Origin: Bacteroidia bacterium
GTDB taxonomy: Bacteria > Bacteroidota > Bacteroidia > B-17B0 > Aurantibacillaceae
Direction of reading: 5' to 3'
NCBI GenBank assembly: GCA_016787445.1
Contig: JAEUTQ010000012.1
Span: 62,001 to 126,000, forward strand
DNA: 64,000 nt
Shown here piece after piece: positions 27,532-41,863 of this stretch (within the stretch, counting starts at the first letter, position 1; every line of letters starts with the position of its first letter). The notes below the pieces were generated by a model, which did no database searches, had not been told where the DNA came from, and saw only the letters and a program-made list of their open reading frames with translations. The position numbers and the translations under genes are program-made.

Positions 27532-28683
27532 ATGATTAAAGTTTTAGTAATAGACGATGAGAAAGCCATTCGCAGAAGCATAAAGGAAATTCTGGAGTTT
27601 GAAAAATATTCTGTGGATGAAGCGGAAGATGGTGTGCAAGGACTTTCCATGGCACAGAAAAATAATTACGATGTTATTTTAAGTGATATAAAAATGCCAA
27701 AACTGGATGGCATGGAGTTACAAAATAAACTCATTGAATCGGGTGTAAGCAGTGCCTTAATTATTATGAGCGGTCATGGAACCATTGATACCGCGGTGGA
27801 AGCCGTAAAAAAGGGGGCTTACGATTTTTTAGCTAAGCCGATTGACTTAAACCGTTTGCTGGTGACCGTTAGAAACGCGATGGATAAATCGAGTCTTGTT
27901 ACGGAGACTAAACAGTTAAAGAAAAAAATCAGTAAAACTTTTGATATCATTGGCGAATCGAAAGCAATCAAGGACATAAAGGATATAATCGAAAAAGTGG
28001 CCCCAACGGAGGCCCGTGTATTAATTACCGGTAGTAATGGTAGCGGGAAAGAATTAGTGGCTCGCTGGTTACATGAGAAAAGCAATCGTGCTGCCGGGCC
28101 ACTCGTTGAGGTAAACTGCGCCGCTATTCCATCAGAATTAATTGAAAGCGAATTGTTCGGTCATGAGAAAGGATCATTTACGAGTGCCATCGCGCAACGT
28201 AAGGGTAAATTTGAAATGGCTGAAGGCGGCACTTTGTTTTTAGATGAAATTGGAGATATGAGCCAATCGGCACAAGCTAAAGTATTACGCGCTTTACAGG
28301 AAAGTAAAATTACACGTGTAGGTGGCGATAAAGAGATTAAAGTGAATGTGCGAGTAGTGGCAGCAACGAATAAGGATTTGAAATCCGAAATCGAAAAGGG
28401 AAATTTCAGAGAGGATTTATACCATCGCTTAAATGTAATACCAATTCATGTACCGTCTTTAAATGAACGATTAGATGATATTCCTCTTTTGGCTAAACAT
28501 TTCTTAAATCAAATTTGTACGGAAGGTAACATGCCTGTAAAGTCGATTTCCAATGAAGCAATAAAGGAAATGCAAAAACGCAACTGGACAGGAAATATCC
28601 GGGAGTTTCGAAACGTAATTGAGCGTTTAGTGATTTTAGGCGGTAAGGAAATCAGCGATAAAGACGTTAAGCAATTTGCTTAA
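27532..28683 (+). CDS. NtrC-like response regulator lacking GAFTGA and HTH
   Basis: 383 residues. A receiver domain (about 1-120) has the phosphoacceptor Asp52 (LSDIKMPKLDG). A sigma-54-type AAA+ domain (about 140-375) has Walker A GSNGSGKE (167-174) and Walker B GGTLFLDEIGD. The sigma-54 contact loop, normally GAFTGA, reads GSFTSA (214-219), and the protein ends just after the AAA+ lid (ISDKDVKQFA), without the Fis-type DNA-binding helix-turn-helix. It therefore may not act as a normal sigma-54 activator. It follows the Ppx/GppA gene by 3 nt and its end overlaps the stop of the facing gene. No histidine kinase is adjacent. Confidence 0.9.
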   Translation: MIKVLVIDDEKAIRRSIKEILEFEKYSVDEAEDGVQGLSMAQKNNYDVILSDIKMPKLDGMELQNKLIESGVSSALIIMSGHGTIDTAVEAVKKGAYDFLAKPIDLNRLLVTVRNAMDKSSLVTETKQLKKKISKTFDIIGESKAIKDIKDIIEKVAPTEARVLITGSNGSGKELVARWLHEKSNRAAGPLVEVNCAAIPSELIESELFGHEKGSFTSAIAQRKGKFEMAEGGTLFLDEIGDMSQSAQAKVLRALQESKITRVGGDKEIKVNVRVVAATNKDLKSEIEKGNFREDLYHRLNVIPIHVPSLNERLDDIPLLAKHFLNQICTEGNMPVKSISNEAIKEMQKRNWTGNIREFRNVIERLVILGGKEISDKDVKQFA

Positions 28684-29615
28684 TCGAAATTCACTTTCTT
28701 TAAAAGCCATTCGTAATAGCTTTGCTTTTTGTAATTGGGGTCGTATAATTTTTTATCAGGACGCTTAGCTCCCAATTGCTTTAAATCGGTGATACACATT
28801 TCAGGGTAACTAAGAGTTGGATTCATAAGCCACTTGATGTGACGCTTAAAAAAACTCAATTCAGCACCAGGAAATTTTGCGATTTGCATGTGCGGCAAAA
28901 GGGCTTTTGTTGTTTTTCTGAATTCTCTGTAATTGTGATTTTTTAAATCTGTACCGCCCCAATCTTTTATTAATTCCAAACCAATATGAAAAGTGAGATG
29001 TTGTTTTGTCAATAAAATTGGATTCTGTGCAAAGCAGAATAAATTGTAGAATAAATCATTTCCAACAAATGGAATACCAATGCACGTGTTGTTAAGAATA
29101 AACTTCGGAAATAAATCACGTTTGAATACAAACATATCAAATCCCAAATGCTCTTTTCCTGTTTCTGTATAGATAAGGTCTAAGTCTTCAGGTTTGTTAA
29201 GTGTGCTTTTGATTCTTCTTCGGTTTATCACAATAGCATCATGATCTTGTTCAATGTATTTTCCAATCGCATTGTAAAAAGGTAACATTAAACCAATATC
29301 CGCATTTGAATAAATGATGTAATCGGCCTGGCTATTGTCGTACGCAAGCTTCAGGATATCCTTTAGAAGCGGTAATTTCTTTTTATTACTAAAAGTGCCA
29401 ATATCCTGTATGCTTTTCTCGAGTGGAGGATATTGTTTAAATGCGTCGTTTTTCACCGGAAAGTCTTTGTGATAGCACAAGACTTGTTCAATTGAATAAC
29501 CGCTGTAAGATTTGGCTTTTTGCATGGAAGCCAAAGTGATATTTTGTAATTCAAAAAGTGATTTGTTTTCACTTTCTGAAACAGCATTCACAATATGTAC
29601 AAATGACAGATTCAT
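28680..29615 (-). CDS. Glycosyltransferase-like protein
   Basis: 311 residues, soluble, with no signal peptide. The middle shows a GT-A-like strand and acidic motif (YIIYSNADIGLMLPFYNAI), and further on GIPFVGNDLFYN and RDLFPKFIL, as in nucleotide-sugar-dependent transferases that lack a classic DxD. I infer a cytoplasmic glycosyltransferase but cannot name donor or acceptor. It is the third gene of an operon with two sulfotransferases (start at the last base of the previous stop), so it probably acts on the same sulfated glycan. Confidence in the enzyme class is moderate. Confidence 0.6.
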   Translation of the reverse strand: MNLSFVHIVNAVSESENKSLFELQNITLASMQKAKSYSGYSIEQVLCYHKDFPVKNDAFKQYPPLEKSIQDIGTFSNKKKLPLLKDILKLAYDNSQADYIIYSNADIGLMLPFYNAIGKYIEQDHDAIVINRRRIKSTLNKPEDLDLIYTETGKEHLGFDMFVFKRDLFPKFILNNTCIGIPFVGNDLFYNLFCFAQNPILLTKQHLTFHIGLELIKDWGGTDLKNHNYREFRKTTKALLPHMQIAKFPGAELSFFKRHIKWLMNPTLSYPEMCITDLKQLGAKRPDKKLYDPNYKKQSYYEWLLKKVNFD

Positions 29616-30463
29616 TATATAGAATACCCTAATTCATTCATTAAAGATATCAATTCTTTATCGGAATACAGAAATTCCAAATCTTCCTTGCTGTAAAATT
29701 CTTTCCAGCCTCCGGATTTACCTTCACGTACAAAATTTTGTTTGGTGTTCGACATAAATCGGCTGCCAAACTCATTTTCTATTTTTTTCAATTCAGTAAA
29801 TGAGGTCTTCTCTTTTAATAACTCAATATTCAATGGAGTTTTAAAACCACAAAAGCGATTGATGCCTTCAATTGTTTCATTAAAATTGTTTAAAAGAGAT
29901 TCGTAGGAAAGCACAAGGATTTTATCGTGATTTTGCTTTTGATACATTTTCATGGCTTTAATGTGTTGTTTCCAACTGCCGTGGCGTAATACGATGTTGC
30001 TTCGTATGAATTCCGAGAAGGTGCCACTAAAAAATTGGTAGGCCAACACAAAATGATAATAGGAAATTAAAGCATCGCGGTAATCACGGTAAATGTAGAT
30101 AACACGAGGATACCCCTCAAAAAAAATATCGTGAGTTTTTATTATTCTACCCGACGATTGGTTATCAATAATTTCTTTAGAAACATATACATCCGGTACA
30201 ATGTTCTCGAGTTCGTGAAAATTAATAGTGGTGGAGGTGCCATTTTTTAAGTAGGCCAGTATAAAACGCAACCATGTATTACCTGATTTGGGATAAGACA
30301 CCAAAAAAATGTCATCGGGATTTATTTTTTTGATTTGAAATAGAAAAGCAGTTTTGTTGATAAGACCAAGTTTTGCAGGTAGCCAACGTAAATATTGCAT
30401 CATTAATCGCTTTTTGCTGATAGGAAAAACAGCTTCCGGAATAAATATATGTTCCTGTTTCAT
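29615..30463 (-). CDS. Sulfotransferase (Sulfotransfer_1-type)
   Basis: 282 residues. The 5'-phosphosulfate loop that binds PAPS is VSYPKSGNTWLRFILAYL (YPKSGNTW at 57-64). The 3'-phosphate motif is VIYIYRDYRDALISYYHF. The C-terminal FVREGKSGGWKEFY matches the RKGxxGDWK region that closes over PAPS. These features fit the cytosolic-type family that moves sulfate from PAPS to hydroxyl or amino groups. It overlaps the upstream sulfotransferase gene by 4 nt (ATGA) and the downstream glycosyltransferase-like gene by 1 nt. The acceptor is unknown; a surface glycan is the simplest guess from context. Confidence 0.88.
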   Translation of the reverse strand: MKQEHIFIPEAVFPISKKRLMMQYLRWLPAKLGLINKTAFLFQIKKINPDDIFLVSYPKSGNTWLRFILAYLKNGTSTTINFHELENIVPDVYVSKEIIDNQSSGRIIKTHDIFFEGYPRVIYIYRDYRDALISYYHFVLAYQFFSGTFSEFIRSNIVLRHGSWKQHIKAMKMYQKQNHDKILVLSYESLLNNFNETIEGINRFCGFKTPLNIELLKEKTSFTELKKIENEFGSRFMSNTKQNFVREGKSGGWKEFYSKEDLEFLYSDKELISLMNELGYSI

Positions 30464-31299
30464 ATAGTTGCAAACAGCTTTCTTAACCGAGCATACGCTA
30501 AATTAACGTTATTGCGTATTTTAATGATGGTTGCGTATTTTTTATTGCCCTCGTGTAGTTCCTTCAAACCCTTTTCTAACACATCTTTCTTTTGTTCCAT
30601 AAGGGCTTTGAATTTTTGCAAAGCGTGTTCAAAAAGAACTTCATCATACTTACTGCAAGCTTTTATTAACTCCTCAGTTTCAGTATCCAACTCCGATTTA
30701 TCAATTTTGTAAGATGATTTATTCTCCTTTACATAAAATAAGGGAGGCCAGTTCATGTAGTCCGATAACAACACCAAGCTTTCATCAAAATATTCAGTTA
30801 AACCAAATCGATGAAAATACTCATCTAAATTTTTAACGGCAGTTTTTAAGTCATCTTCATTTACGGTAAGATAATCTTTTTGCACAGTGTTCGATAGATA
30901 ACGTACCATCAGATTGTCAAAATTTTTCACAAGACCTTGTTTCAAAAAATCTTTTAAGGTATAGTCATTTATGTTAATCTGTTTTTTTATAACATGCTGG
31001 CCGTCGCCTTTAATATGACGATAGGTTGATAAAAGTCTTTCACGTGCCGATCTTAAAAAAGTAAAACATTCTATACCTCTTTCAAGCCTTTGATTAGGAT
31101 TAAAACCAACATGTCCGTAACTTAACTCAAATTTGTTTTTGTATTCAGGTGTTAGAAGCGAGTAATTCTCACGTTCTTTAGGTGAATAAAAAGATAATTT
31201 CTTGCGCCATGTAAATCGCCTCGTTAAAATAAGGGCAAATGTTGTGCCCGCAGTTTTGGGAATATGTACAAACTGAAATTGCTTTTTTTGCTGGTTCAT
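30460..31299 (-). CDS. Sulfotransferase (Sulfotransfer_2, HS2ST-like type)
   Basis: About 279 residues from the chosen start. The PAPS 5' loop is FVHIPKTAGTTF (residues 10-21) and the 3' motif is CFTFLRSARERLLSTYRHI, typical of the carbohydrate sulfotransferases related to heparan/uronyl 2-O-sulfotransferases. The open frame extends to a TTG at 31326, but that codon lies inside a good -7 promoter box (TACATTTG), so ATG at 31297-31299 (MNQQKKQFQF) is preferred. It is first gene of a three-gene operon and divergent from the MBOAT-SGNH gene. This family differs from that of its neighbour, suggesting two different sulfation sites. Confidence 0.87.
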   Translation of the reverse strand: MNQQKKQFQFVHIPKTAGTTFALILTRRFTWRKKLSFYSPKERENYSLLTPEYKNKFELSYGHVGFNPNQRLERGIECFTFLRSARERLLSTYRHIKGDGQHVIKKQININDYTLKDFLKQGLVKNFDNLMVRYLSNTVQKDYLTVNEDDLKTAVKNLDEYFHRFGLTEYFDESLVLLSDYMNWPPLFYVKENKSSYKIDKSELDTETEELIKACSKYDEVLFEHALQKFKALMEQKKDVLEKGLKELHEGNKKYATIIKIRNNVNLAYARLRKLFATI

Positions 31300-31314
31300 T
31301 TTGATACTTTTTAA

Positions 31315-31346
31315 TTTACATTTCAAATGTATTAATTATATCTTAG
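31315..31346 (+). promoter_or_regulatory. Weak promoter of the MBOAT-SGNH operon
   Basis: TTTA (31315-31318), 20 nt, TATCTTAG (31339-31346). It departs from consensus at one base in each box, and a very similar TACCTTAG precedes the plus-strand gene at 41863. It overlaps the divergent sulfotransferase promoter. Confidence 0.4.
31324..31331 (-). promoter_or_regulatory. -7 box (TACATTTG) of the sulfotransferase operon
   Basis: Read on the minus strand, TACATTTG matches TAnnTTTG and ends 24 nt before ATG 31299. A TTTTGC about 15 nt further upstream is a poor -33. The box decides the start codon of the downstream gene. Confidence 0.55.
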
Positions 31347-31372: not shown

Positions 31373-33775
31373 TTGCAAAATAAGGATTCAGTATATAAGT
31401 TGTTGTATTATTCTTTGGCTTATGCATTGGTGTTTTATGCAGCTTACCTTATTAACTTCGATAAAGCACTTGATATGGTTGCTTTTAGTCCGGTTTTAAT
31501 CGGACTATTTATGGTTCAGTATTTTTTAAAGCCTGCACATAAAATGTTTGTGTTTCCAGTTCTGTTTATAACCTTGGCTTTTATGGTATTTACTCCGCTC
31601 ACAGCTTTGGTATTAATTGTATCACTGGTTTTGTTCGGAACTGTTATGTTCTCTAAATCTTCATACTACATAAAATTAATTTTTGCTTTGTTCTTTTTTG
31701 GCTTCATGATTTTACTATTAGCAGATGTAGTTCAGGTGTATCCTGTAAATTTCATGGCTCCATTTCTGCTAAGCATTATCATGTTCAGAGGTATTTTACT
31801 GTTATATGAATTTAAACACGCGCACGTGGTAAACAATTACGCTGCATCCTTTGCTTATTTGTTTTCCTTTCCGCAATTGCTTTTTCCGGTAATGCCGATC
31901 ATAGATTTTAAATTATTTGTTAATGGCTCAAACCCAACTTATGTTACAATATTGTGGCAAAAGACTTTTCGCCAGTTTATAACCGGTTTGTTTTTGTTTA
32001 CGGTTTATAAAATTTCTGATGCTTATTCCAATCTGGATGTATCGCAGCTTTATACAGTAAGTCATTTGTTTGTGGCAGTACTATTTAAGTTAACAGTACT
32101 TATTAAAATCTGCGGATTGTTTATGTTCTCTTTAGGATTTTTGACGATGTTCGGTATTGATTTACCATCTGCCTTTGGCTTTTTCCCTTTAGCTTCTGGG
32201 TTTAGAGATTACTGGAAGGATGTAAATCGCTACTGGCGTGATTTTTTATTGAAGTTGATTTATTATCCTTTGTATTTTAAGTTACGTAAAACGAACTGGC
32301 CATTTAAGACCTTCTTAGTAGTTATCGTTACATTTTTATTTTCAAGCTTTTTTCATTTTTATCAGCTATACCTGTCTTCAGGATATTTCCAATTGAAGTT
32401 GAATGATATTGTGTATTGGATGTGTTTGGGTTTTCTGGTTTACTGGAGTAATATCAGGTTTGAAAAAACATATAATAAGAATGATGGTGTTATCCAAGAG
32501 CCGGGCTTGTTAAAGCGTTCATTGAATGTTTTACTCGTGCAAAGCGTCATGTCCTTTTTGTTTTTTTTATGGAATTGCAATAGCTTGAGTGAATTTTTCT
32601 TCTTTCTTAAAAAGGGTAATAGTTTTGACATAGCGATTTTTGTTTATTTTATTCTGCTATGGTTTATAATTATTATAGCCCTGTTCTTAAGACCTCACAT
32701 CGAGAAAATTCTTTTTAATTCAAAAAGTGTAAATGTCACATCGGTTTGTTTTATAGTCTTTTTAATTGCAGGAAGTTTTTTACCACACTCAAGTTCCGGA
32801 CGAATTATTGATGTGCTTTATGGCAACGCACCAACAAGTGATGCGGATGCAAAGGAAGAAGGGTATTATGCGAAACTTCTCAATTCAAGTAATAATTCAA
32901 AAATGGGTAAAGAGGGTATAAACCGATTGCGACCCTTAGAAAAAGCGGGTGTCAAGAGTAATACTGTCTTGAAGCAGGAACTTGCACCAAATACGCTGAT
33001 TAGTTTTAATGGCACTGAAATAAGCACCAATAGTTATGGGCAACGGGATAAAGAATACGTGTTAAAGAAAGAAGAGTCTGTACAGCGCATTGCTATTTTG
33101 GGAGGTTCGTACGAAATGGGAACCGGAGTAAATGACGAAGTTGTATTTGAACAACAAACTGAAATATGGTTAAATGCGTATTCAGGTAGGAAGTATGAGT
33201 TGATTAATTTCGCGGTACCTATGTACACCATTTTGCAAAGTAAATATGTGTGTGAAAATAAAATTAAGAAATTTGATGTGGATGTAGCAGTGTTGTTTTC
33301 TCATACAAATGAAGAGCAACGGATGCTTAATAGTTTTTCGCGTCTCATAAAAAGTGGTTTTAATTTTGATGAAGATTTTCTTAAATTTATTATTCAAAAA
33401 TCCGGTGTTAAAAGGGAGATGAGTACCCCTGAAATAAAATACAGATTACAACCTTATGTTAACGCTATTTATTTCTGGTGTTACCAAGAAATGGTTGCCT
33501 ACTGTCATAAAAACAACATTAAAGCGGTTTGGGTCTTCTTACCAACAACAACAACACAAAAATTATCCGATGTAAAAGCAGATGATAATTTAAAGCAATT
33601 AGCTCAGAAGGCGGGTTTTGAAGTGTACTCTTTGCAAAATATATACGGAAACAGAAGTGCAAAAACGCTTGCTGTTAGTTCAATTGACTCTCATCCTAAT
33701 GCACTGGGACATACCTTGATTGCAGGTGGATTTTATCATATAATAACAGGATTAAATAAACAATCACATGAATAG
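31373..33775 (+). CDS. MBOAT acyltransferase fused to an SGNH-hydrolase domain
   Basis: About 800 residues. The frame is open from TTG 31301 (824 residues), but a putative -7 box lies at 31339-31346, so TTG 31373 (MQNKDSVYKLLYY) is the likelier start. Ten or more transmembrane helices carry MBOAT landmarks: DYWKDVNRYWRDFL and the membrane-embedded catalytic-type His in SSFFHFYQ (codon 32354-32356). The C-terminal third, predicted outside the membrane, has SGNH blocks: GGSYEMG (Ser codon 33107) and DSHPNALGH (Asp 33686, His 33692). DltB/DltD and AlgI/AlgJ use separate proteins for these two activities. It overlaps the carrier-protein gene by 8 nt. Predicted to move an acyl group onto an external acceptor. 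Confidence 0.82.
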   Translation: MQNKDSVYKLLYYSLAYALVFYAAYLINFDKALDMVAFSPVLIGLFMVQYFLKPAHKMFVFPVLFITLAFMVFTPLTALVLIVSLVLFGTVMFSKSSYYIKLIFALFFFGFMILLLADVVQVYPVNFMAPFLLSIIMFRGILLLYEFKHAHVVNNYAASFAYLFSFPQLLFPVMPIIDFKLFVNGSNPTYVTILWQKTFRQFITGLFLFTVYKISDAYSNLDVSQLYTVSHLFVAVLFKLTVLIKICGLFMFSLGFLTMFGIDLPSAFGFFPLASGFRDYWKDVNRYWRDFLLKLIYYPLYFKLRKTNWPFKTFLVVIVTFLFSSFFHFYQLYLSSGYFQLKLNDIVYWMCLGFLVYWSNIRFEKTYNKNDGVIQEPGLLKRSLNVLLVQSVMSFLFFLWNCNSLSEFFFFLKKGNSFDIAIFVYFILLWFIIIIALFLRPHIEKILFNSKSVNVTSVCFIVFLIAGSFLPHSSSGRIIDVLYGNAPTSDADAKEEGYYAKLLNSSNNSKMGKEGINRLRPLEKAGVKSNTVLKQELAPNTLISFNGTEISTNSYGQRDKEYVLKKEESVQRIAILGGSYEMGTGVNDEVVFEQQTEIWLNAYSGRKYELINFAVPMYTILQSKYVCENKIKKFDVDVAVLFSHTNEEQRMLNSFSRLIKSGFNFDEDFLKFIIQKSGVKREMSTPEIKYRLQPYVNAIYFWCYQEMVAYCHKNNIKAVWVFLPTTTTQKLSDVKADDNLKQLAQKAGFEVYSLQNIYGNRSAKTLAVSSIDSHPNALGHTLIAGGFYHIITGLNKQSHE

Positions 33776-34025
33776 AGATGAATTAAAGAAAGAGGTTCGG
33801 AGTTTTATTGCGAATAAAATGTTTAAAGGAAACTTGCCCGGCGATTTTACGGATGATACTAAGCTGATTAGTTCACGCCTCATTGATTCAATTGTGGTGT
33901 TGAGTATGGTAAATTATCTGGAAGAGAAGACTAAAACTGAGTTCGCGGCACATGAAGTAAGCGTCGAAAATTTAGATACTGTAAATATTATCGCCGACTT
34001 CCTATCAAAGAAATTATCAAAATAA
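33768..34025 (+). CDS. Acyl/peptidyl carrier protein (DltC/PltL-like)
   Basis: 85-residue four-helix carrier protein. The phosphopantetheine site is Ser41 in LIDSIVVLSMVNYLEE. It overlaps the end of the MBOAT-SGNH gene by 8 nt (ATGAATAG) and sits next to a free-standing adenylation-domain gene. It is therefore expected to hold the amino acid activated by that enzyme and to present it to the dehydrogenase and then perhaps to the MBOAT protein, as DltC does for DltB. No phosphopantetheinyl transferase is in the window. Confidence 0.88.
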   Translation: MNRDELKKEVRSFIANKMFKGNLPGDFTDDTKLISSRLIDSIVVLSMVNYLEEKTKTEFAAHEVSVENLDTVNIIADFLSKKLSK

Positions 34026-34063
34026 TTAGGAGGCCTCAATTAAAAAGGAGTACGCTCCCTTAC

Positions 34064-35473
34064 TTGATAAATGAAGAAGGGCAGATGGCGTTATTCTCTG
34101 ATTTGGCATCAGCTGTTAATAAATTTCAAGAGAATATTTCACAACTAGGATTAGAGAAGCAGAATTCAAGCATAGCAATTTGGACTGAGAAATCAGTAAA
34201 TGCCATTGTTATGATTCAAGCGATTTTATCTTCAGGGAACGGATACATTCCAATTAACAATGATTGGCCTTCCGACAGGGTAAAATTTATTTTGGAAAAT
34301 ACCGGTACCGCCACGTTAATTGTGGATGAAAATCGATGCTCCATTGCTTCCGATCTGTTGAATGAAATGGGAGTACAATTTACCATGGTTCGAATTGACA
34401 GAAACTTTTATCTTTTTAGCTTTAAATCAATCCGAAAAATCCGATTACCAAAAGCCTTAAGTTATATCTTATTTACCTCCGGTTCTACAGGATATCCAAA
34501 GGGAATTGTACATACGCATGAAAGTGCATTTACGTTTTTGAAATGGTGTTTGAAGGAATTTAAAAGCTATAAAATTAAACGCCACGTATCTATTGCACCT
34601 CTCAATTTTGATTTGTCGGTCTTTGATGTTTTTTATCCTTTAGTTAATACATCCACCTTGTTTGTTCCTTCTTCATCCGTCATATCAAACACGCGCTTAT
34701 TCGCAAAGTATGTGAACGATCAAAAAATCGAATCGTTATATACAACACCTTCATATTTGAATCTACTGGAACAAACCGGTAAATTATCTGCTTACGATTT
34801 CAAACACGTTAAACTTATTTTAATCGCCGGAGAGGCTTTATCATCTGATTTAGTAAAGCGATTAAAAGTGCATTTTAAAAAAGCAACGTTTTATAATTTA
34901 TACGGACCAACGGAAACCAATGTTTGCAGCGCATTTAAAATTAATTTAAAAAAGCTGAGCGGGGAGTATATTCCGATTGGTAAATCCATTATTAAAGGGA
35001 ATATAAAACTTAGCAAACAAGGTGAGTTGTTATATAAGGGAAAACTCTTGATGTCAGGCTATATTAATGATAAGGGGTATCAAGTACTCCGAAAGAATTC
35101 AGTTTATAAAACCGGCGATTTTGTTACTTGCGATAAAAACGGTCTATTAAATTTTATTGGACGAAAAGATAATCTCGTTAAACGTAACGGGTTTCGGATT
35201 GAATTAAATGAAATTAATAAAGCTTTGCAAAAACATTCGGCTATTGGTCGATGCGAATCTTTATTTTTAAAAGAAGATAATCTAATCGTTTCTTTTGTGG
35301 AATCAGCTGATGATTTATCTCAGTTAGCTTTAAAATCTTTCTGCTTAAAGCACTTACCATCATATATGGTGCCGGATTTAATAATGGTTTTACGAAAAAT
35401 TCCGGTAAATTTAAATCATAAAGTTGACCAAACTGCTTTAAGAAAAATGTATGCTCAATCATTTAAATCATAA
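34064..35473 (+). CDS. Free-standing NRPS-type adenylation domain, predicted proline-activating
   Basis: 469 residues. Adenylation motifs are clear: A3 FTSGSTGYPKG (from residue 137), A4 FDLSVFD (D183), A5 YGPTETNVC, A7 YKTGD, A8 FIGRKDNLVKRNGFRIELNE and A10 with the catalytic K453 in NHKVDQ. By hand alignment to GrsA the specificity residues read D-L-F-Y-L-A-L-V-C-K, one step from the DLLYLALVCK I recall for the L-proline-activating enzymes of pyrrole pathways (PltF, CloN4 type). It should load the carrier protein just upstream. The start is uncertain: A-domain-like residues continue in frame before TTG 34064, but no standard start codon is found there; AAGGAG lies 13 nt before the TTG. Confidence 0.88.
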   Translation: MINEEGQMALFSDLASAVNKFQENISQLGLEKQNSSIAIWTEKSVNAIVMIQAILSSGNGYIPINNDWPSDRVKFILENTGTATLIVDENRCSIASDLLNEMGVQFTMVRIDRNFYLFSFKSIRKIRLPKALSYILFTSGSTGYPKGIVHTHESAFTFLKWCLKEFKSYKIKRHVSIAPLNFDLSVFDVFYPLVNTSTLFVPSSSVISNTRLFAKYVNDQKIESLYTTPSYLNLLEQTGKLSAYDFKHVKLILIAGEALSSDLVKRLKVHFKKATFYNLYGPTETNVCSAFKINLKKLSGEYIPIGKSIIKGNIKLSKQGELLYKGKLLMSGYINDKGYQVLRKNSVYKTGDFVTCDKNGLLNFIGRKDNLVKRNGFRIELNEINKALQKHSAIGRCESLFLKEDNLIVSFVESADDLSQLALKSFCLKHLPSYMVPDLIMVLRKIPVNLNHKVDQTALRKMYAQSFKS

Positions 35474-36596
35474 TCATCAATCGACTTACAAGGCTTATCA
35501 TAAGCTGGCGGCAGAAATTTGTTCTGAGGCTGATGTTATGAAAGAGGACAAAGCTGCAGTGTACAACAGAGAGACTTTTCGCGCTATAAACGCTGCCGGT
35601 TTTAATGCGTTGCACTTACCGGATTCATTAGGTGGTAGAAAATTATCAGCAATGGATACAGCTGTTGCTTATTTAGCATTAGGGGCATCTTGTCAGAACA
35701 ATGGTTTAACTTTTTCTGTCGGTGCACAAGCATTTTCTGTAAATGTTCCTTTGATGAAATATGGAAATGATGCTCTCTGCAATCAGTTTTTAATTCCATC
35801 TGTTAAAGGTAAGATTGTAATTGCGTCAGCTATTACAGAAAAGGAAAGTGGTTCGGATGCCTATAATATGAAAACCACGGCTGTTAAATCAGGAAACGAT
35901 TACATATTAAACGGCTCTAAATATTACATTACGAATGCACCCATTGCGGATTATTTTCTGATTTATGCATTTACCGATGTTCAGAAAGGAAGTATTGGGG
36001 GATTGAGCGCATTCTTAGTTGATGCAAAGGAAAAAGGTGTAGAAGTGCTTGGTCCAATTGATAAAATGGGATTACGAACAGCGCAAATGGGAGGCGTGAA
36101 TTTGACAAATGTGAAGGCTATTGCTAGGTTAGGTGAGGAGGGAAGTGCTACTGCGATGTTCAATGAAGCTATGATTTGGGAAAGAACCATTTTAAGCGCT
36201 TTAAATCTTGGAATCGTTGCTAGAGTATTAGAGAAAGTTAAGAAGTTCGGAGAAGAGAATTCGAGGGGTGGAAAAAAATTGAATGAGCAATTGGAATTTA
36301 TTACACTGATTAATCATTCCAATTCCTTTTTAACTCAGGCCTGGGAGAAAATAAGTGATGCCGCAATTGCCTTGGATCAATTCCCTAAACAATCGTTTTT
36401 AAAAGCATCCATCGCTAAATCATTTGTTGCGGACAATGGTGAGAAATTAATACGTAGTTTGCAACAAGCTACAGGAGCTTTTGGTTATTTAAGTGAAAAC
36501 GGTATTGAGCGTGATTACCGCGATTTTTTAGCGTTTACTATTTACTCAGGTTCTCAGTACGTGCAAAATAAAATTATTTCAAGTTTTAGTCAGTAA
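35451..36596 (+). CDS. Acyl-CoA dehydrogenase-like flavoprotein, predicted prolyl-carrier oxidase
   Basis: 381 residues, full-length acyl-CoA dehydrogenase fold. FAD and substrate motifs include IASAITEKESGSDAYNMKT and YYITNAPIADYF. The catalytic base is at the isovaleryl-CoA-dehydrogenase position, Glu244 in MIWERTIL, while the classic YEG site is replaced (IYSGSQY). That is the arrangement I recall for enzymes oxidising prolyl-S-carrier to pyrrolyl-S-carrier (PltE/CloN3 type), whose size it shares. It overlaps the adenylation gene by 23 nt and the hydroxylase gene by 1 nt, so it belongs to that pathway rather than to fatty-acid oxidation. Activity on proline is inferred from the trio. Confidence 0.86.
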   Translation: MLNHLNHNHQSTYKAYHKLAAEICSEADVMKEDKAAVYNRETFRAINAAGFNALHLPDSLGGRKLSAMDTAVAYLALGASCQNNGLTFSVGAQAFSVNVPLMKYGNDALCNQFLIPSVKGKIVIASAITEKESGSDAYNMKTTAVKSGNDYILNGSKYYITNAPIADYFLIYAFTDVQKGSIGGLSAFLVDAKEKGVEVLGPIDKMGLRTAQMGGVNLTNVKAIARLGEEGSATAMFNEAMIWERTILSALNLGIVARVLEKVKKFGEENSRGGKKLNEQLEFITLINHSNSFLTQAWEKISDAAIALDQFPKQSFLKASIAKSFVADNGEKLIRSLQQATGAFGYLSENGIERDYRDFLAFTIYSGSQYVQNKIISSFSQ

Positions 36597-37273
36597 TGAG
36601 TCAACATAATATAACTGAAAAGAATCCTCAATTTTTTTATGAGGCAAAGGACTTCCCATTCTTAAACCCTTTGGTTGAAAATTTTTCAGTTATAAAATCT
36701 GAATTACTAAATCTAATTGAAAAGAATAAGGAAAATCAATGGCTCGAAACGTTTCCGAATTATGTAGCGTCGGAAAACAAGAAGGCTTGGAAGGTTTTTT
36801 CTTTCATTTTTTTCTCAATGAAATTTCCTGAAAACGCGAAATTGTGTCCTAAGACAGCTGAATTGATTTATTCTATTCCTGATATTATTTCCTGTGATTA
36901 TTCGTTTCTAAAACCTAATACACATATTCTTCCACATAAAGGTTACACGCGCATGGTTTTGCGTTGTCATTTGCCTCTGATTGTTCCGGAAGGTGATTGC
37001 GCCATTCGTATCGGTGACGAAACAAGAAAGTGGGAGGAAGGTAAACTCATGGTGTTTGATGATTCATTTGATCATGAGGCTTGGAATAAAAGTGACAATA
37101 ACCGAGTTGTTTTAATGTTTGATATTCCGAATCCGCTCTGGGGTTATACGGCATATCAGATTTCTAAATACAAAATTGAGAATCTTGATGATCCGTTTTT
37201 GTTATCGATGGTAACTAAGGAAAAATGGCTGGAAGCTTTTTCTAAGGGAGAATTTCCTTTGATGAGCTTTTAA
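36596..37273 (+). CDS. Aspartyl/asparaginyl beta-hydroxylase-like Fe(II)/2-oxoglutarate enzyme
   Basis: 225 residues. The second half holds the family's iron and cosubstrate motifs: HILPHKGYTRMVLRCHLPL (first His and the Arg/His pair) and WEEGKLMVFDDSFDHEAWNKS (second His), then NNRVVLMFDI. Soluble bacterial members hydroxylate small molecules or lipid acyl chains (LpxO) as well as Asp residues. Its 1-nt overlap with the dehydrogenase gene points to hydroxylation of the carrier-bound ring or acyl group, or of the final product; which one cannot be told. Last gene of the plus-strand operon; its end overlaps the facing GNAT gene by 4 nt. Confidence 0.85.
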   Translation: MSQHNITEKNPQFFYEAKDFPFLNPLVENFSVIKSELLNLIEKNKENQWLETFPNYVASENKKAWKVFSFIFFSMKFPENAKLCPKTAELIYSIPDIISCDYSFLKPNTHILPHKGYTRMVLRCHLPLIVPEGDCAIRIGDETRKWEEGKLMVFDDSFDHEAWNKSDNNRVVLMFDIPNPLWGYTAYQISKYKIENLDDPFLLSMVTKEKWLEAFSKGEFPLMSF

Positions 37274-37887
37274 TTTTTAAGCACATTGTTTATTTCATCC
37301 AAGTTGTTTTCCGATATTGTTCCGGTACAGATTAATTCACCGTCGCCATTGTTTAATTGCTCTGCCGCTTTATTGAGTTTGCTTCCGTTTTTTATATAAT
37401 CCTCAATACTTAATTCGTACAGTTGATTATAAATCCCTTCTTGTCCGGCTACTAATTTATAACCTGTAAGCTGATTGTAATGAATGGCTCTGTCGTTATC
37501 GTTTAAGATGCGGGCATGTGAAAGCTTGCATAATTTCACTTTGAAGAAAACAAAATTAAGCAGACATAAAGTACTGAATACGGCGGCAAACGAGTTAATG
37601 TAATCATTGTCCCAAATAAAAATACCCCCTTCGCCAAACCCGTTTTCATAGCTGAAATTTTTGGCATTTATTAATCCTACTTGCTTTCCTTCGAACTCAA
37701 TAATAAAATAGTAATTGAATTTATTGTTAACCGATTCAAACCATTTCTGCTGCATTTGTGGCGTAATGTATTCGCGATAATCCATATACATTTTTACCGA
37801 CTGCTGGTTGCGCCAATAGCGTAGGAGTTCGAGGTCGTTTTTTGTAATTCGCCTCAGGGTAACGCCATATTGTTTAATCGTCAACAC
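37270..37887 (-). CDS. GNAT-family N-acyltransferase
   Basis: 205 residues of the RimJ/RimL or PseH type: LRRITKNDLELLRYWRN at the N terminus, a central strand pair with EFEGKQVGLINAKN, and ARILNDNDRAIHYNQLTGYKLV, the usual acyl-CoA-binding region and C-terminal helix of GNATs. PseH-like members acylate the 4-amino group of nucleotide amino sugars, which would suit this glycan-related locus. It overlaps the GT2 gene (14 nt). The last 35 or so residues are an additional polar tail. The acceptor is not readable. Confidence 0.75.
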   Translation of the reverse strand: MLTIKQYGVTLRRITKNDLELLRYWRNQQSVKMYMDYREYITPQMQQKWFESVNNKFNYYFIIEFEGKQVGLINAKNFSYENGFGEGGIFIWDNDYINSFAAVFSTLCLLNFVFFKVKLCKLSHARILNDNDRAIHYNQLTGYKLVAGQEGIYNQLYELSIEDYIKNGSKLNKAAEQLNNGDGELICTGTISENNLDEINNVLKN

Positions 37888-38803
37888 TTTTTTCTGCGAT
37901 ATAGTAAGATGGCTTATTGTTAACGTCTTTTAAAATTTTACTGATATATTGAGCAACAATACCAATGCTTAAAACAATCAAGCCGGTTGAAAACAAAAGA
38001 CTAACAATAATGGAAGTATAACCATGTACCGGTGTCTTGAAAAGAAATTTCTTCAATAAATAGAATGTGCCAATAATAAAATTAACTGTTGCCAGCGTAA
38101 AACCAATAGTTGTAACAAGGCGTAGAGGAAATGTAGAGGAAAACATGATAACACTCCCAGTTATTTGAAATAGGCTTCCTAACGAATAACCGCTGCGTTT
38201 TGAAATCGGGCTTTTATTGGGTCGTACTTTAATGAATGACATTCGGTTGGTATACCAAATTAAGAGTTCATCAATAAACATGAAGTGTGTATGTGTTTCA
38301 GCAAGTTTGTGAGCTAATTCGGATTTTATTAGCCTAAAAGAAGAGCCTTTTCCTTTATTTTTACCTTCCATTTTTGAACCGGCTTTATAAAGCCAGGTAA
38401 GCGTTTCTCTTAAAAATGATTGATCAAGTTTTCTATACTCGCCATACACCACATCATTACCGCTTTTTACTTCCTCTTCAATTAAATATTTTATCTCTTC
38501 CGGATGCACCTCCAGGTCGTCATCAATTGTGATAATATAATTTCCTTTGGCAAACTTAATACCACATAAAGTTGCAGGTTGCTGTCCGAAATTCTTTGTT
38601 AATCGTATAATTCTTACGTTTTTATTATAGTTTTTTAGTTTGGTAAGAATTTTCCAAGTATCATCGGTGTTTCCATCATCCACTATAATAACTTCATAGG
38701 TATACGTTGTTGACTGAAAAAAATTTGTTATTTCTTCGAACAACAACTCGATGCTGTTTTGTCCGTTGTATGTGGGAATTATTATAGAATATTGTAAACT
38801 CAT
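37874..38803 (-). CDS. Polyprenyl-phosphate-type GT2 glycosyltransferase (DPM1/GtrB/ArnC-like)
   Basis: 309 residues. An N-terminal GT-A domain (YSIIIPTYNGQ, VIIVDDGNTDDT, ITIDDDLEVHPEE) is followed by two C-terminal transmembrane helices (about 220-245 and 270-300). This architecture transfers a sugar from a nucleotide donor to undecaprenyl or dolichyl phosphate on the cytoplasmic side; the lipid-linked sugar is then used by a GT-C enzyme outside. A GT-C-like protein is encoded at 41863 in the same locus. It overlaps the SDR gene by 4 nt and the GNAT gene by 14 nt. Confidence 0.88.
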   Translation of the reverse strand: MSLQYSIIIPTYNGQNSIELLFEEITNFFQSTTYTYEVIIVDDGNTDDTWKILTKLKNYNKNVRIIRLTKNFGQQPATLCGIKFAKGNYIITIDDDLEVHPEEIKYLIEEEVKSGNDVVYGEYRKLDQSFLRETLTWLYKAGSKMEGKNKGKGSSFRLIKSELAHKLAETHTHFMFIDELLIWYTNRMSFIKVRPNKSPISKRSGYSLGSLFQITGSVIMFSSTFPLRLVTTIGFTLATVNFIIGTFYLLKKFLFKTPVHGYTSIIVSLLFSTGLIVLSIGIVAQYISKILKDVNNKPSYYIAEKSVDD

Positions 38804-39543
38804 TTTTTACTGCTTAATAATAAACCTCCGTCCATTTTGATTGTGGTGCCTGTTATCCATTTGGAAGCATCAGATAAAAGGAATGCCGCGCAATTCGCGA
38901 TATCTATTGGTTCGCCAAAACCCAATGGATATTGTGCCTCGTAATTTTTCATTTCCTCTTCAGAAGTGGCTAGCTCGGTTTCATCAAAAATTTTTGTTTT
39001 TACCAATGAAGGCGCAATTACGTTCGCGCGAATTTTTTTAGAGGCGTGTTCAATGGCAAATGAACGACAAAAAGCTTCGAGCGCCGCTTTAGAAGCACTG
39101 TATAATGCTCCGCCGATGTATGGATGCAAGGATGAAATGGAGGAAAGAAAAATAACCGAGGCATGATTATTGAATTTTTTCGCGCTGCTTAATTCGCTGC
39201 ACAACAAAACAGTGGAGTTAAAATTCGCTTCAAACATTTCAGAAATATGTTTGCTCTTAATAAACTTTACAGGTAAAGGTTTAACAATACCTGCACAGTT
39301 GATTAATCCGTCAAGGTTGTTGCAGTTTTTTACCAATTCCGATAACTGATTTTCATTCGTTAAATCAGCTACTATTATTTGATGTTTGTTTTTTAGTTGA
39401 GAAGCAGTAGTTTTTAATTCAGCCTCATTTCTTCCTGTAATAATAACCTGAGCACCCAACTGATCACATAAAACAGCGCAGGCTCTGCCAATGCCAGAAG
39501 AGGCACCGGTAACCAAAACTGTTTTATTATTTAAGGTTATCAT
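38800..39543 (-). CDS. Short-chain dehydrogenase/reductase (FabG-like)
   Basis: 247 residues, classical SDR. The NAD(P)-binding TGASSGIGRA is at 12-21, with NCAGI in the middle, catalytic Ser in FLSSISS and the Tyr/Lys pair in YSASKAA, and a C-terminal TGTTIKMDGG as in FabG-type enzymes. Between a KAS III and a glycosyltransferase it most likely reduces a 3-oxoacyl group on the nearby carrier protein, although a sugar or other alcohol is possible. It overlaps both neighbours by 4 nt. Confidence 0.88.
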   Translation of the reverse strand: MITLNNKTVLVTGASSGIGRACAVLCDQLGAQVIITGRNEAELKTTASQLKNKHQIIVADLTNENQLSELVKNCNNLDGLINCAGIVKPLPVKFIKSKHISEMFEANFNSTVLLCSELSSAKKFNNHASVIFLSSISSLHPYIGGALYSASKAALEAFCRSFAIEHASKKIRANVIAPSLVKTKIFDETELATSEEEMKNYEAQYPLGFGEPIDIANCAAFLLSDASKWITGTTIKMDGGLLLSSKK

Positions 39544-40595
39544 AATTCAATAATTTTGGCGCAACTTAATTCAGATGTGTTTATAACAACACTTCCCCAC
39601 GAAAGACCAACCCCAAAGCCGCACAATAACAAAGTTAAACTTTCTTTCGTAAGTTGTTGCTCTAATCCAAAACACATGGTTAATGGTATGGAGGCCGAGC
39701 TGGTATTACCGAAAAGTTCTATGGAAGATGGACATTTTTCTTTTTCAATTCCCAACTTTTTGCGAACGGTTTCGTTTATGAGTTTGTTAGCCTGGTGTAA
39801 GATGAAAAAATCAATGTCACTTTTGTTTTTATCAGCCGCAGCGATAGTTTCTTCAATGTTTGGCGGTACTTCTTTCAACGCAAATGTAAAAATGTCTTGT
39901 CCGTTTAAAGCTAAGTGTTTTTTAGCGCGTTTTATTCCTGGTTCAGGTTCGTAAATAGTTTCTGAGGAAGAATCGTAAGGGTGACGGGAATGACCGTGCT
40001 CGATGATGATGGCATTTTTTCCGCTTCCGTCACTATTTAAATTGAAGGTAAGCTCGGAGGCATTTTTATCGTACTCGATTAAGGTGGCTGTTCCTGCATC
40101 ACCAAACAGAGGGTAAGCGCTTTTATCGCCTTCAAAGGTAGAGATGGTAGATTTATCACCACACAATAATAGTGCTTGCTTGAATTGTCCGCTTTGCATA
40201 AAACCGGCCAAAACGCTTAAACCATATACATAACCGCTGCAACCAAGCGTAATGTCAAAAGCCAATACGCTTTTTTTAAGCTTTAGTTTATCTTGTAAAA
40301 TGATAGCAGTCGACGGTAGAAAATAATCGGGAGATTGTGAGACAAAAATGATGATGTCAATATTCTCGCGATTAGTAATGTTGTTTTCGAAAAAATAATT
40401 GGCGGCTTTCTCACACAAATCGCTGCAGGTCGTTTTATCATCCGCAACTCTTCTTTCTTTAATGCCAACTGTTTTATGAAATAGTTCTTGTTCTTCTTTG
40501 CTTATGTTATTGTAATCATACGTGCTTTTAATCTGTCTGGGTACGCAAACAGAAATACCTTTGATGGAAATGCCCGATGTTTTAAAAATGCTCAA
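39540..40595 (-). CDS. 3-oxoacyl-ACP synthase III-like enzyme (KAS III 2)
   Basis: 351 residues, FabH/KAS III fold with the full catalytic triad: Cys119 (TLGCSGYVYGL), His267 (FFILHQAN) and Asn297 (ELFGNTSSAS). KAS III enzymes condense an acyl-CoA with malonyl-ACP; relatives act as acyl shuttles (CouN2-type) or O-acyltransferases. It overlaps the SDR by 4 nt and the ACP gene by 4 nt. About 30-35% of residues look shared with KAS III 1 (my rough reading), so this is an old paralog pair rather than a recent duplication. Confidence 0.9.
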   Translation of the reverse strand: MSIFKTSGISIKGISVCVPRQIKSTYDYNNISKEEQELFHKTVGIKERRVADDKTTCSDLCEKAANYFFENNITNRENIDIIIFVSQSPDYFLPSTAIILQDKLKLKKSVLAFDITLGCSGYVYGLSVLAGFMQSGQFKQALLLCGDKSTISTFEGDKSAYPLFGDAGTATLIEYDKNASELTFNLNSDGSGKNAIIIEHGHSRHPYDSSSETIYEPEPGIKRAKKHLALNGQDIFTFALKEVPPNIEETIAAADKNKSDIDFFILHQANKLINETVRKKLGIEKEKCPSSIELFGNTSSASIPLTMCFGLEQQLTKESLTLLLCGFGVGLSWGSVVINTSELSCAKIIEL

Positions 40596-40828
40596 GCTGA
40601 TTTTTTTTGTTGAACGAGATTGTACAGGTCTTGAACGGTTTGAGTTGATTTTAAATCTGCCCCGCTTAAAGTAATATTAAAATTTATGTCGATAAAAGCA
40701 ATGATAATAAGCGCATGCATACTGCTCCAGCCTTTAATGCTGCGATAATCTGTTTCCGCTTTTAAAGTGCCTTGTGGCATATCTTCAAATTCGGCTTCCA
40801 GTTTTTGTATGAATTCGTTTATCGACAT
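40592..40828 (-). CDS. Second acyl carrier protein
   Basis: 78 residues. The phosphopantetheine site is in IKGWSSMHALIII (Ser36, the Ser before Met). It lies between two KAS III genes, overlapping the downstream one by 4 nt, so it is probably their dedicated carrier. It differs clearly from the carrier at 33768 (IDSIVV site), so the locus runs two separate carriers. Confidence 0.85.
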   Translation of the reverse strand: MSINEFIQKLEAEFEDMPQGTLKAETDYRSIKGWSSMHALIIIAFIDINFNITLSGADLKSTQTVQDLYNLVQQKKSA

Positions 40829-40837
40829 AGAACAAAT

Positions 40838-41824
40838 TTAATAATTTATTACAGTTGCACCCCAACTATTTCCTACACCAAAGCCAGCTAACAGAACTTT
40901 CATGCCTTTTTGCAGCTTTTTTTCTTCTTTAGCAGTATATAATGCAAGCGGAAGGGTAGAAGCAACGGTGTTGCCATAATCCTTAATGTTGGTGTAAAAT
41001 TTGTTTTCCGAAATATTAAGTTTTTTTCTAAGGGTTTCAAGCATAAAGCCATTTGCCTGATGGAAAATAAACAAATCAATGTCTTCCATTCCTAATTTGT
41101 TTTTATCCAACGTTTCTTTCACCATTTTGGGAACGGTTTTTAACGCGAACGTAAACACGTTGGTGCCATTCATGACCATTTGTCCGAATGGATTTATTTC
41201 ATTTCTGCAGGCACTTTTTTCAATGGGTTTTCTAAAGGCACTGTTCTCTATGTACAAGTCAAGCGCACCGCTTCCATCACTTCCAAAGATGAATTCATTG
41301 TCGGGTAAATTTCCCAAATAAGTAATAATGTTCGCGGTGGCAACATCACTAAAAATACTGCGTTGTTCTAAGTTATCGGGTGAAAGAGTTTTTGTTGAAG
41401 TATCACAGGTTAAAAATAAAATTGTTTTAGCCATGCCGCTTTTTAAGAATCCGTTGGCCATTCCTAAGCCATAAACATAACCTGAACAACCATAAGGCAA
41501 ATCAATACAGGCAGTGGTTTGTGGTAATCCGAGGCGATGTTGTAATATGCAACTGGTAGCAGGCGCTATGTAATCGAAACAATCAGAGCAAAAGATCAGA
41601 AAATCAATTTTTGATTTTAATTCAGGTTCAATGTCAAAAATCTTTTTGGCAGCCAAATAGGCTAAATCAGAAGCGGTTTCGTTTTTTCCTGAAATGTATC
41701 TGGATTCGATGCCGGTACGTTTTAATATTTCTTTTTCAGAAACATTAAACTCTTTTGCCAGCATTTGATTTGATAAAATGAGTTCGGGTAAATGAATGCT
41801 TATTTTATCAATAGAGAGTCCCAT
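40838..41824 (-). CDS. 3-oxoacyl-ACP synthase III-like enzyme (KAS III 1)
   Basis: 328 residues with an intact KAS III triad: Cys113 (LPYGCSGYVYGLG), His255 (LFIFHQAN) and Asn285 (KDYGNTVAST). Its primer acyl group is unknown. It is first gene of the minus-strand operon; the ACP gene follows after 9 nt. A near-perfect promoter ends 7 nt before the ATG, which would give a leaderless or almost leaderless message. With the ACP, second KAS III and SDR it could build a 3-hydroxyacyl chain, or pass a pre-made acyl group from one carrier to another. Confidence 0.9.
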   Translation of the reverse strand: MGLSIDKISIHLPELILSNQMLAKEFNVSEKEILKRTGIESRYISGKNETASDLAYLAAKKIFDIEPELKSKIDFLIFCSDCFDYIAPATSCILQHRLGLPQTTACIDLPYGCSGYVYGLGMANGFLKSGMAKTILFLTCDTSTKTLSPDNLEQRSIFSDVATANIITYLGNLPDNEFIFGSDGSGALDLYIENSAFRKPIEKSACRNEINPFGQMVMNGTNVFTFALKTVPKMVKETLDKNKLGMEDIDLFIFHQANGFMLETLRKKLNISENKFYTNIKDYGNTVASTLPLALYTAKEEKKLQKGMKVLLAGFGVGNSWGATVINY

Positions 41825-41831
41825 AGTTTAC

Positions 41832-41863
41832 CAAAAGTAAAAAAAATGTACCTTAGCTGCAAA
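41832..41863 (-). promoter_or_regulatory. Strong Bacteroidota promoter of the KAS III operon (near-leaderless)
   Basis: On the minus strand, TTTG (41860-41863), 20 nt, TACTTTTG (41832-41839) fits the consensus exactly. The -7 box ends 7 nt before ATG 41824, so transcription would begin about at the start codon. Its -33 element overlaps the start codon of the divergent 41863 gene, whose own weak -7 box (TACCTTAG, 41849-41856) lies inside this spacer. Confidence 0.65.

Follow-up and report, generated by a model that had tools for sequence, protein, structure and literature searches.

To our knowledge, the groups that known systems attach to bacterial envelopes are simple ones: acetyl, succinyl, D-alanyl, glycyl and fatty acyl groups. 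In Gram-positive bacteria, the compact Dlt operon (DltABCDX) encodes a free-standing adenylation (A) domain, a small carrier, the membrane-bound O-acyltransferase (MBOAT) DltB and an SGNH partner, and in Vibrio the A domain and carrier of AlmEFG feed a modification of a Gram-negative envelope, the addition of glycine to lipid A. A carrier, a proline A domain and an acyl-CoA dehydrogenase (ACAD) make up the pyrrole trios PltF/PltL/PltE, PigI/PigG/PigA, RedM/RedO/RedW and AnaC/AnaD/AnaB, whose product enters a small natural product. In aminocoumarin biosynthesis (CloN/CouN), a pyrrole-2-carboxyl group moves from its carrier to the hydroxyl of a sugar, and a KAS III-like protein and a second carrier are involved. 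MBOAT and SGNH domains also occur in PatA/PatB and other MBOAT-SGNH acyltransferases, among which PatA uses acetyl-CoA (PMC12148441). We analyzed a 64,000-nucleotide stretch of DNA (hereafter the window) from a Bacteroidia bacterium (contig JAEUTQ010000012.1, positions 62,001 to 126,000), which contains an operon that appears to join elements of these systems. Judged by its sequence, it is an MBOAT-SGNH machine of the Dlt/Pat kind, with a predicted proline-to-pyrrole supply, and it is not assigned to the D-alanine Dlt family because it stays under the cut-offs of the DltA models.

Four genes at 31373-36596, all on the + strand and overlapping or closely spaced, encode an MBOAT-SGNH fusion, a carrier, an A domain and an ACAD-like dehydrogenase. 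All four were found with intact reading frames where a preliminary description of the window had placed them. The extent which it gave for the operon was too short, as it left out a fifth overlapping gene (PF05118) and the larger cluster described further below. The five genes are as follows:

31373 (TTG)..33775, + strand: MBOAT-SGNH fusion of 800 aa, with the SGNH transferase on the periplasmic side (AlphaFold2 and Foldseek, alignment of 14 homologues)
33768..34025, + strand: stand-alone carrier of 85 aa (weak PDB matches; conserved in 12 loci)
34064..35473, + strand: free-standing A domain (proline code DLFYLALVCK)
35451..36596, + strand: putative L-prolyl-carrier dehydrogenase of the ACAD fold (PDB and NCBIfam matches, tree, catalytic Glu)
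36596..37273, + strand: PF05118 Fe(II)/2-oxoglutarate hydroxylase (overlaps the dehydrogenase stop codon; nearest to the lipid acyl hydroxylases OlsC and LpxO)

The five genes are under constraint, since the ratio of nonsynonymous to synonymous divergence (dN/dS) between the window and its relative G007 is 0.03-0.26 for all of them, with proteins 92-98% identical. The assembly that contains the window comprises 3.77 Mb, and the named relatives are metagenome-assembled genomes of uncultured Bacteroidia/Sphingobacteriaceae. Promoter, terminator and Rfam scans were uninformative.

Among free-standing A domains of solved structure, the window protein matched best to the L-proline carrier ligase PltF (6o6e; 187.6 bits, versus 141 bits for DltA). 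Its ten specificity residues, as read from a motif alignment, are DLFYLALVCK, which is identical at 10/10 positions to the A domains beside AnaB-type dehydrogenases in cyanobacteria (L034, L036, L041 and L042) and is shared by most A domains that are linked to a dehydrogenase in other phyla. Alignment of the MBOAT-linked A domains demonstrated that 8/10 code positions are invariant. The AnaC-type loci served as reference for the proline code, and a text search of the literature for the code string found no paper. The identity of the code supports a predicted L-proline-activating A domain, and it speaks against the activation of a different acid, which the preliminary description had named among the outcomes that would refute its proposal. 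A plain variant of Dlt or AlmEFG, with a different small amino acid loaded by the A domain and then acted on by the dehydrogenase, is accordingly very unlikely. DltA models do match the A domain, but the scores (211.6 bits for TIGR01734 and 225.8 bits for PRK04813) fall far under the respective cut-offs of 559.85 and 476, the code is that of the AnaC type, and Dlt and Alm systems are without a dehydrogenase.

Ser41 of the carrier lies in a DSI motif (codon at 33888). The best PDB matches of this protein are weak (E 0.01-0.03) and consist of the carrier chain of 6cxt, which we take to be the Bmp1-Bmp3 pair, and PigG, both being partners of prolyl-carrier enzymes; its best NCBIfam match, the OlsHI carrier, is below cut-off. 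For the dehydrogenase, the best PDB matches are the prolyl-ACP dehydrogenase 4irn and the L-prolyl-PCP dehydrogenase 5zw0, and the best NCBIfam models are PigA (243.5 of 500) and RedW (193.4 of 650), both under the equivalog cut-off. It is placed by these profiles in the same group as PigA and RedW, as an equivalog of neither. Its catalytic Glu244 (codon at 36180) is found in the sequence MIW-E-R, which agrees with the M-x-W-E-R/K motif of the AnaB/PigA/RedW group, and the C-terminal Glu that ordinary ACADs have in YEGT is lost, the window sequence being YSGS. Among fourteen ordinary ACADs from Bacteroidota, the residue at the Glu244 site is a different one, mostly Gly, except in L007 and L017, which have Glu-Glu-Arg there within a different motif. 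In a maximum-likelihood tree, the MBOAT-linked dehydrogenases cluster in a single clade (100/99) within the prolyl-carrier group with AnaB and PigA (100/100), apart from ordinary ACADs. The grouping with fatty-acid ACADs that the preliminary description had listed as a possible refutation was thus not observed. Like the known pyrrole trios, with which it shares the specificity residues and the catalytic Glu, the window encodes together the defined set for thiotemplated pyrrole synthesis, i.e. a carrier, a proline A domain and an ACAD with this Glu (PMC10849742).

A Pfam scan gave no match above threshold for the fusion, and it was therefore tested by structure prediction. A scan of its own genome yielded a sub-threshold MBOAT_2 match to the middle of the protein, and a PDB profile search returned one weak, meaningless match only. 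The AlphaFold2 model, built from 14 homologues, reached a pLDDT of 76.5 and a pTM of 0.69. With Foldseek, its N-terminal half matched, in this order, 6bug (a membrane protein, presumably the DltB-DltC complex), DltB 8jem, HHAT and later PORCN, and its C-terminal half matched SGNH esterases including PatB. The predicted structure thus bears out the fusion proposed earlier, with a DltB/MBOAT front and an SGNH esterase back. Both halves have the residues expected from PatA/PatB and other MBOAT-SGNH acyltransferases: the MBOAT His (codon 32354) and the SGNH Ser (33107), together with the Asp (33686) and His (33692) of an Asp-x-His motif, show little or no variation among the 14 homologues. The linker between the domains contains an invariant G-Y-Y-x-x-[LIM] in the same homologues (Tyr codons 32864 and 32867). 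This is not the literal FXYXXF motif at the C terminus of PatA and DltX, of which the Tyr carries the acyl group (PMC12148441); by analogy with that Tyr, the Tyr-Tyr linker is a candidate acyl shuttle. It may also replace DltX, a separate copy of which was not seen in the window operon, without a dedicated search for microproteins. In the relative G671 (L131, 7324-9796), MBOAT and SGNH are encoded by two reading frames that overlap, owing either to a natural split or to a frameshift.

A scan of 84,980 species genomes with a dehydrogenase profile returned 49 loci. These include prodigiosin clusters, anatoxin-type clusters and the Saprospirales locus L066, in which the fusion, carrier, A domain and dehydrogenase follow the order of the window, with dehydrogenases that are just 30% identical. 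Further contiguous cassettes are those of G007, G497, G498, G799, G754, G545, G624, G727 and G599, and in G001, G002 and G006 the cassette is rearranged within one cluster. The neighbourhood, whose conservation had been left as a check, is thus kept at high divergence in several Bacteroidota families. A fusion profile matched 15 of 395 genomes of the class, 12 of them over both domains (including G671, with its two neighbouring reading frames) and three as short matches to the SGNH domain only. The carrier profile was two-humped, with the same 12 genomes at E <=1.6e-25 and no other genome better than 9e-17 (Fisher p 4e-23 for the association over the 395 genomes, uncorrected for relatedness). 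All 12 genomes with a full-length fusion also encode the proline A domain and the dehydrogenase, in four cases at a separate place. In G671, G573, G641 and G730, the carrier is not adjacent to the fusion and lies instead with the dehydrogenase and a proline-code A domain (DLFYLALVCK, DLLYLALVCK, DLFYLALVCK and DLFYLALVVK, respectively). At the phylum level, G088, G310 and G423 have the fusion alone, and the carrier, proline-code A domain and dehydrogenase are encoded elsewhere. Carrier and fusion thus co-occur genome-wide in other Bacteroidota, as the preliminary description would lead one to expect.

That the fusion is a plain O-acetyltransferase was rejected: all genomes of the class in which it is full-length also encode the pyrrole carrier, which speaks against this function. 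That ordinary fatty-acyl dehydrogenase and carrier genes stand by chance beside an O-acetyltransferase has nothing but the general ACAD fold in its favour; it is refuted by the catalytic residue, the tree and the genome-wide co-occurrence including the unlinked cases, and its probability is negligible. A different association was seen in G310 (C22; L092, 1-7000): one copy of the fusion there has a carrier, an Rv2949c-like chorismate pyruvate-lyase and AMP ligases as its neighbours. This may be a variant of the surface acylation that uses a 4-hydroxybenzoyl group, and since this genome has three fusion copies and a proline set encoded elsewhere, it may run both acyl versions.

Further analysis of the relatives demonstrated a flavin enzyme in the cassette of at least 12 of them, mostly directly behind the dehydrogenase (L066, L088, L089, L122, L123, L126, L127, L129 with two copies, L162, L164, L165 and L193). 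Two of these enzymes were compared with solved structures and were closest to 8zop, CndH, CmlS, PltA, ChlB4 and Mpy16, several of which act on carrier-bound substrates. The relatives' enzymes combine GxGxxG and WxWxIP motifs with kinship to PltA, CndH and CmlS, as is characteristic of carrier-tethered flavin halogenases (WxWxIP in L088, L089 and L040; WCWHI in L066), and they would probably halogenate the carrier-bound pyrrole before its transfer. Three distant WxWxI-type flavin paralogues occur outside the window in its own genome (G000, C9, C57 and C71), in unrelated surroundings, and the existence of paralogues outside such clusters cautions against taking every member of the family for a halogenase. 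One of the three shares 42% identity with the halogenase-like proteins of G497 and G498. In G624 (L126, 5028-6047), a 339-aa protein resembling luciferase-type monooxygenases lies between the A domain and the dehydrogenase. In Chloroflexota, the locus L040 (9923-16490) contains a dehydrogenase, a proline A domain, a carrier, a halogenase-like enzyme, two acyltransferase-3 proteins and glycan genes, which suggests that the same idea arose with another transferase in a possible acyltransferase-3-based counterpart. An ACAD of the prolyl-dehydrogenase type was also seen in Anaerolineales (L044, 412-7486), flanked by SGNH proteins and a Wzm/Wzt-like polysaccharide exporter.

From these results, we regard it as likely that the operon serves a surface acylation, in which proline is converted via a prolyl-carrier to a pyrrolyl-carrier, and the acyl group is relayed through the MBOAT and SGNH domains to an extracytoplasmic hydroxyl. 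This joined Dlt-like and pyrrole reading was already put forward in the preliminary description, and the A-domain code, the tree and Glu of the dehydrogenase, and the conservation now lend it support. In the proposed sequence of events, the A domain would activate L-proline and load it onto the phosphopantetheine arm of the carrier. The dehydrogenase would then oxidize the prolyl-carrier, most likely by four electrons to pyrrole-2-carboxyl and possibly by two to dehydroprolyl. The MBOAT half would receive the acyl group from the carrier at the cytoplasmic side, as in DltB/DltC, probably onto the linker Tyr, and the SGNH half would finally take it on its Ser and pass it to a hydroxyl of an acceptor outside the inner membrane. 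The first two steps are based on family membership and active-site residues, and the third on fold and co-occurrence; the fourth step and the acceptor we infer.

Such a system differs from Dlt in its proline code instead of a D-Ala code, in its additional prolyl-carrier dehydrogenase, in the fusion of MBOAT and SGNH in one chain, and in its Gram-negative host, where no teichoic acid is expected. In contrast to PatA/PatB, the window encodes a dedicated carrier and activating enzymes, and unlike the known pyrrole trios, its trio is tied to a membrane MBOAT-SGNH protein. AlmEFG uses another acyltransferase and glycine, and has no dehydrogenase. Aminocoumarin formation resembles the predicted window pathway in its pyrrole transfer, its KAS III-like protein and its second carrier; it is a soluble antibiotic biosynthesis without a membrane transferase. 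Searches of the open-access literature for pyrrole on surface glycans or with an MBOAT found no such system, in agreement with the preliminary description, whose author knew of none.

Several points weigh against the pyrrolyl surface acylation. The 12/12 association ignores relatedness, and the 12 genomes represent four families. There are two known exceptions, in assemblies that are both incomplete: G005 (75% complete) has the fusion, with no carrier or A domain detected, and G003 (82% complete) keeps the carrier and the A domain, with no fusion gene at that place. Sequence similarity of the fusion to any solved MBOAT was undetectable in the PDB profile search, so that the carrier is considered its donor by fold and genomic association only. 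No halogenase-like gene is present in the cluster of the window genus, and with two KAS III, an SDR and a second carrier encoded nearby, the acyl group might be extended before it is transferred. Moreover, the branch that leads to the window dehydrogenase is long, at 1.48 changes per site, and the clade of this enzyme falls between the PigA group, which removes four electrons, and the AnaB group, which removes two. The columns that separate these groups are mixed, as S89, M140 and A163 agree with the PigA group and R357 and Y365 with AnaB. Because of the branch length, the position of the clade and the mixed columns, a pyrrole product is not proved, and it is likelier than dehydroproline. If the dehydrogenase were of the AnaB kind and stopped after two electrons, the transferred group would be prolyl or dehydroprolyl. 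AnaB, which makes a dehydroprolyl-carrier, is indeed its best PDB match. Nevertheless, we consider this unlikely, though worth keeping in mind, given that the diagnostic columns do not side with AnaB alone, and that neighbours akin to pyrrole halogenases fit an aromatic pyrrole.

The operon is embedded in a larger cluster, of which the remaining genes are as follows:

28680..29615, - strand: conserved protein without Pfam match, which accompanies the cluster in G001, G003 and the f21/f88 genomes
29615..30463, - strand: sulfotransferase (Sulfotransfer_1)
30460..31326, - strand: Gal-3-O-sulfotransferase-like protein
37270..37887, - strand: GNAT N-acyltransferase, PseH-like (Pfam/NCBIfam)
37874..38803, - strand: GT2 glycosyltransferase of the polyisoprenyl-phosphate-sugar type (ArnC/PgfS-like)
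38800..39543, - strand: short-chain dehydrogenase/reductase (SDR), FabG-like
39540..40595, - strand: KAS III-like ketosynthase with Cys-His-Asn
40592..40828, - strand: second small carrier, with GWSSM motif
40838..41824, - strand: second KAS III-like ketosynthase with Cys-His-Asn
41863..43773, + strand: PMT_2-like membrane glycosyltransferase with C-terminal tetratricopeptide repeats (TPRs)

Within the genus this surrounding block is conserved, and other families have it in a different gene order; the PF05118 gene adjoins the GNAT gene in most relatives. The sulfotransferases, the ArnC-like glycosyltransferase and the PMT-like glycosyltransferase point to a glycan. The acceptor is probably a sugar from this adjoining cluster, be it a lipid-linked sugar, a surface glycan or the O-linked glycan of a glycoprotein. 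A plausible route would involve a lipid-linked sugar that is N-acylated and perhaps also hydroxylated and sulfated; the PMT-like enzyme would hand it over, and the fusion would pyrrolylate it. We lean slightly towards the broader view of a system widespread in Bacteroidota, in which an often halogenated pyrrole-2-carboxyl group made from proline would be esterified by the MBOAT-SGNH protein to an N-acylated, sulfated surface sugar.

Alternatively, the pyrrolyl or prolyl group could be extended by the KAS III, SDR and second carrier proteins to a small secreted or lipid-linked product, which the MBOAT-SGNH protein would finish or export. These genes adjoin the operon, both KAS III have an intact Cys-His-Asn, and the set is kept in the relatives' cluster; pyrrolyl carriers are known to feed ketosynthase-type enzymes in prodiginines and aminocoumarins. 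However, the KAS III/SDR/GNAT/glycosyltransferase set is separable and forms its own sub-block in G001 and others, and in G573 and G730 the pyrrole trio is encoded separately from the fusion. With the glycan indicated by the sulfotransferases and the ArnC-like and PMT-like enzymes, and with the action of studied SGNH partners of MBOATs on envelope polymers (PMC12148441), such an extension appears quite improbable, and transfer of the pyrrolyl group to a surface acceptor is preferred.

The protein with PMT_2 and TPR regions (41863-43773) has a TMTC-like layout and stays by the cluster in the genus; it is possibly a protein O-glycosyltransferase. Next to it, 44244-48884 encodes a Ser/Thr-rich repeat protein with PKD and CHU_C type IX secretion system (T9SS) domains, which in relatives is 1546, 1708 and 1874 aa long. 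Such T9SS-secreted PKD/CHU_C proteins are candidate glycoproteins bearing the glycan. Divergence from G007 (locus L021) was uneven along the cluster: the A domain (34064-35473) has a synonymous divergence (dS) of 0.07, versus 0.25-0.34 in its operon neighbours, and the GT2 protein (37874-38803) is 68% identical to the G007 copy, versus 96-98% for its neighbours. This pattern suggests recombination, perhaps with a changed sugar.

If the proposed surface acylation is true, a heteroaromatic and possibly halogenated ester from an antibiotic-type pathway would represent a new surface chemistry for Gram-negative bacteria, and carrier-fed transfer by MBOAT proteins would not be restricted to D-alanine. 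The operon would also serve as a marker by which to find new glycans in Bacteroidota from activated sludge and comparable habitats, in which the heterocycle chemistry of natural products would serve the decoration of the cell surface.

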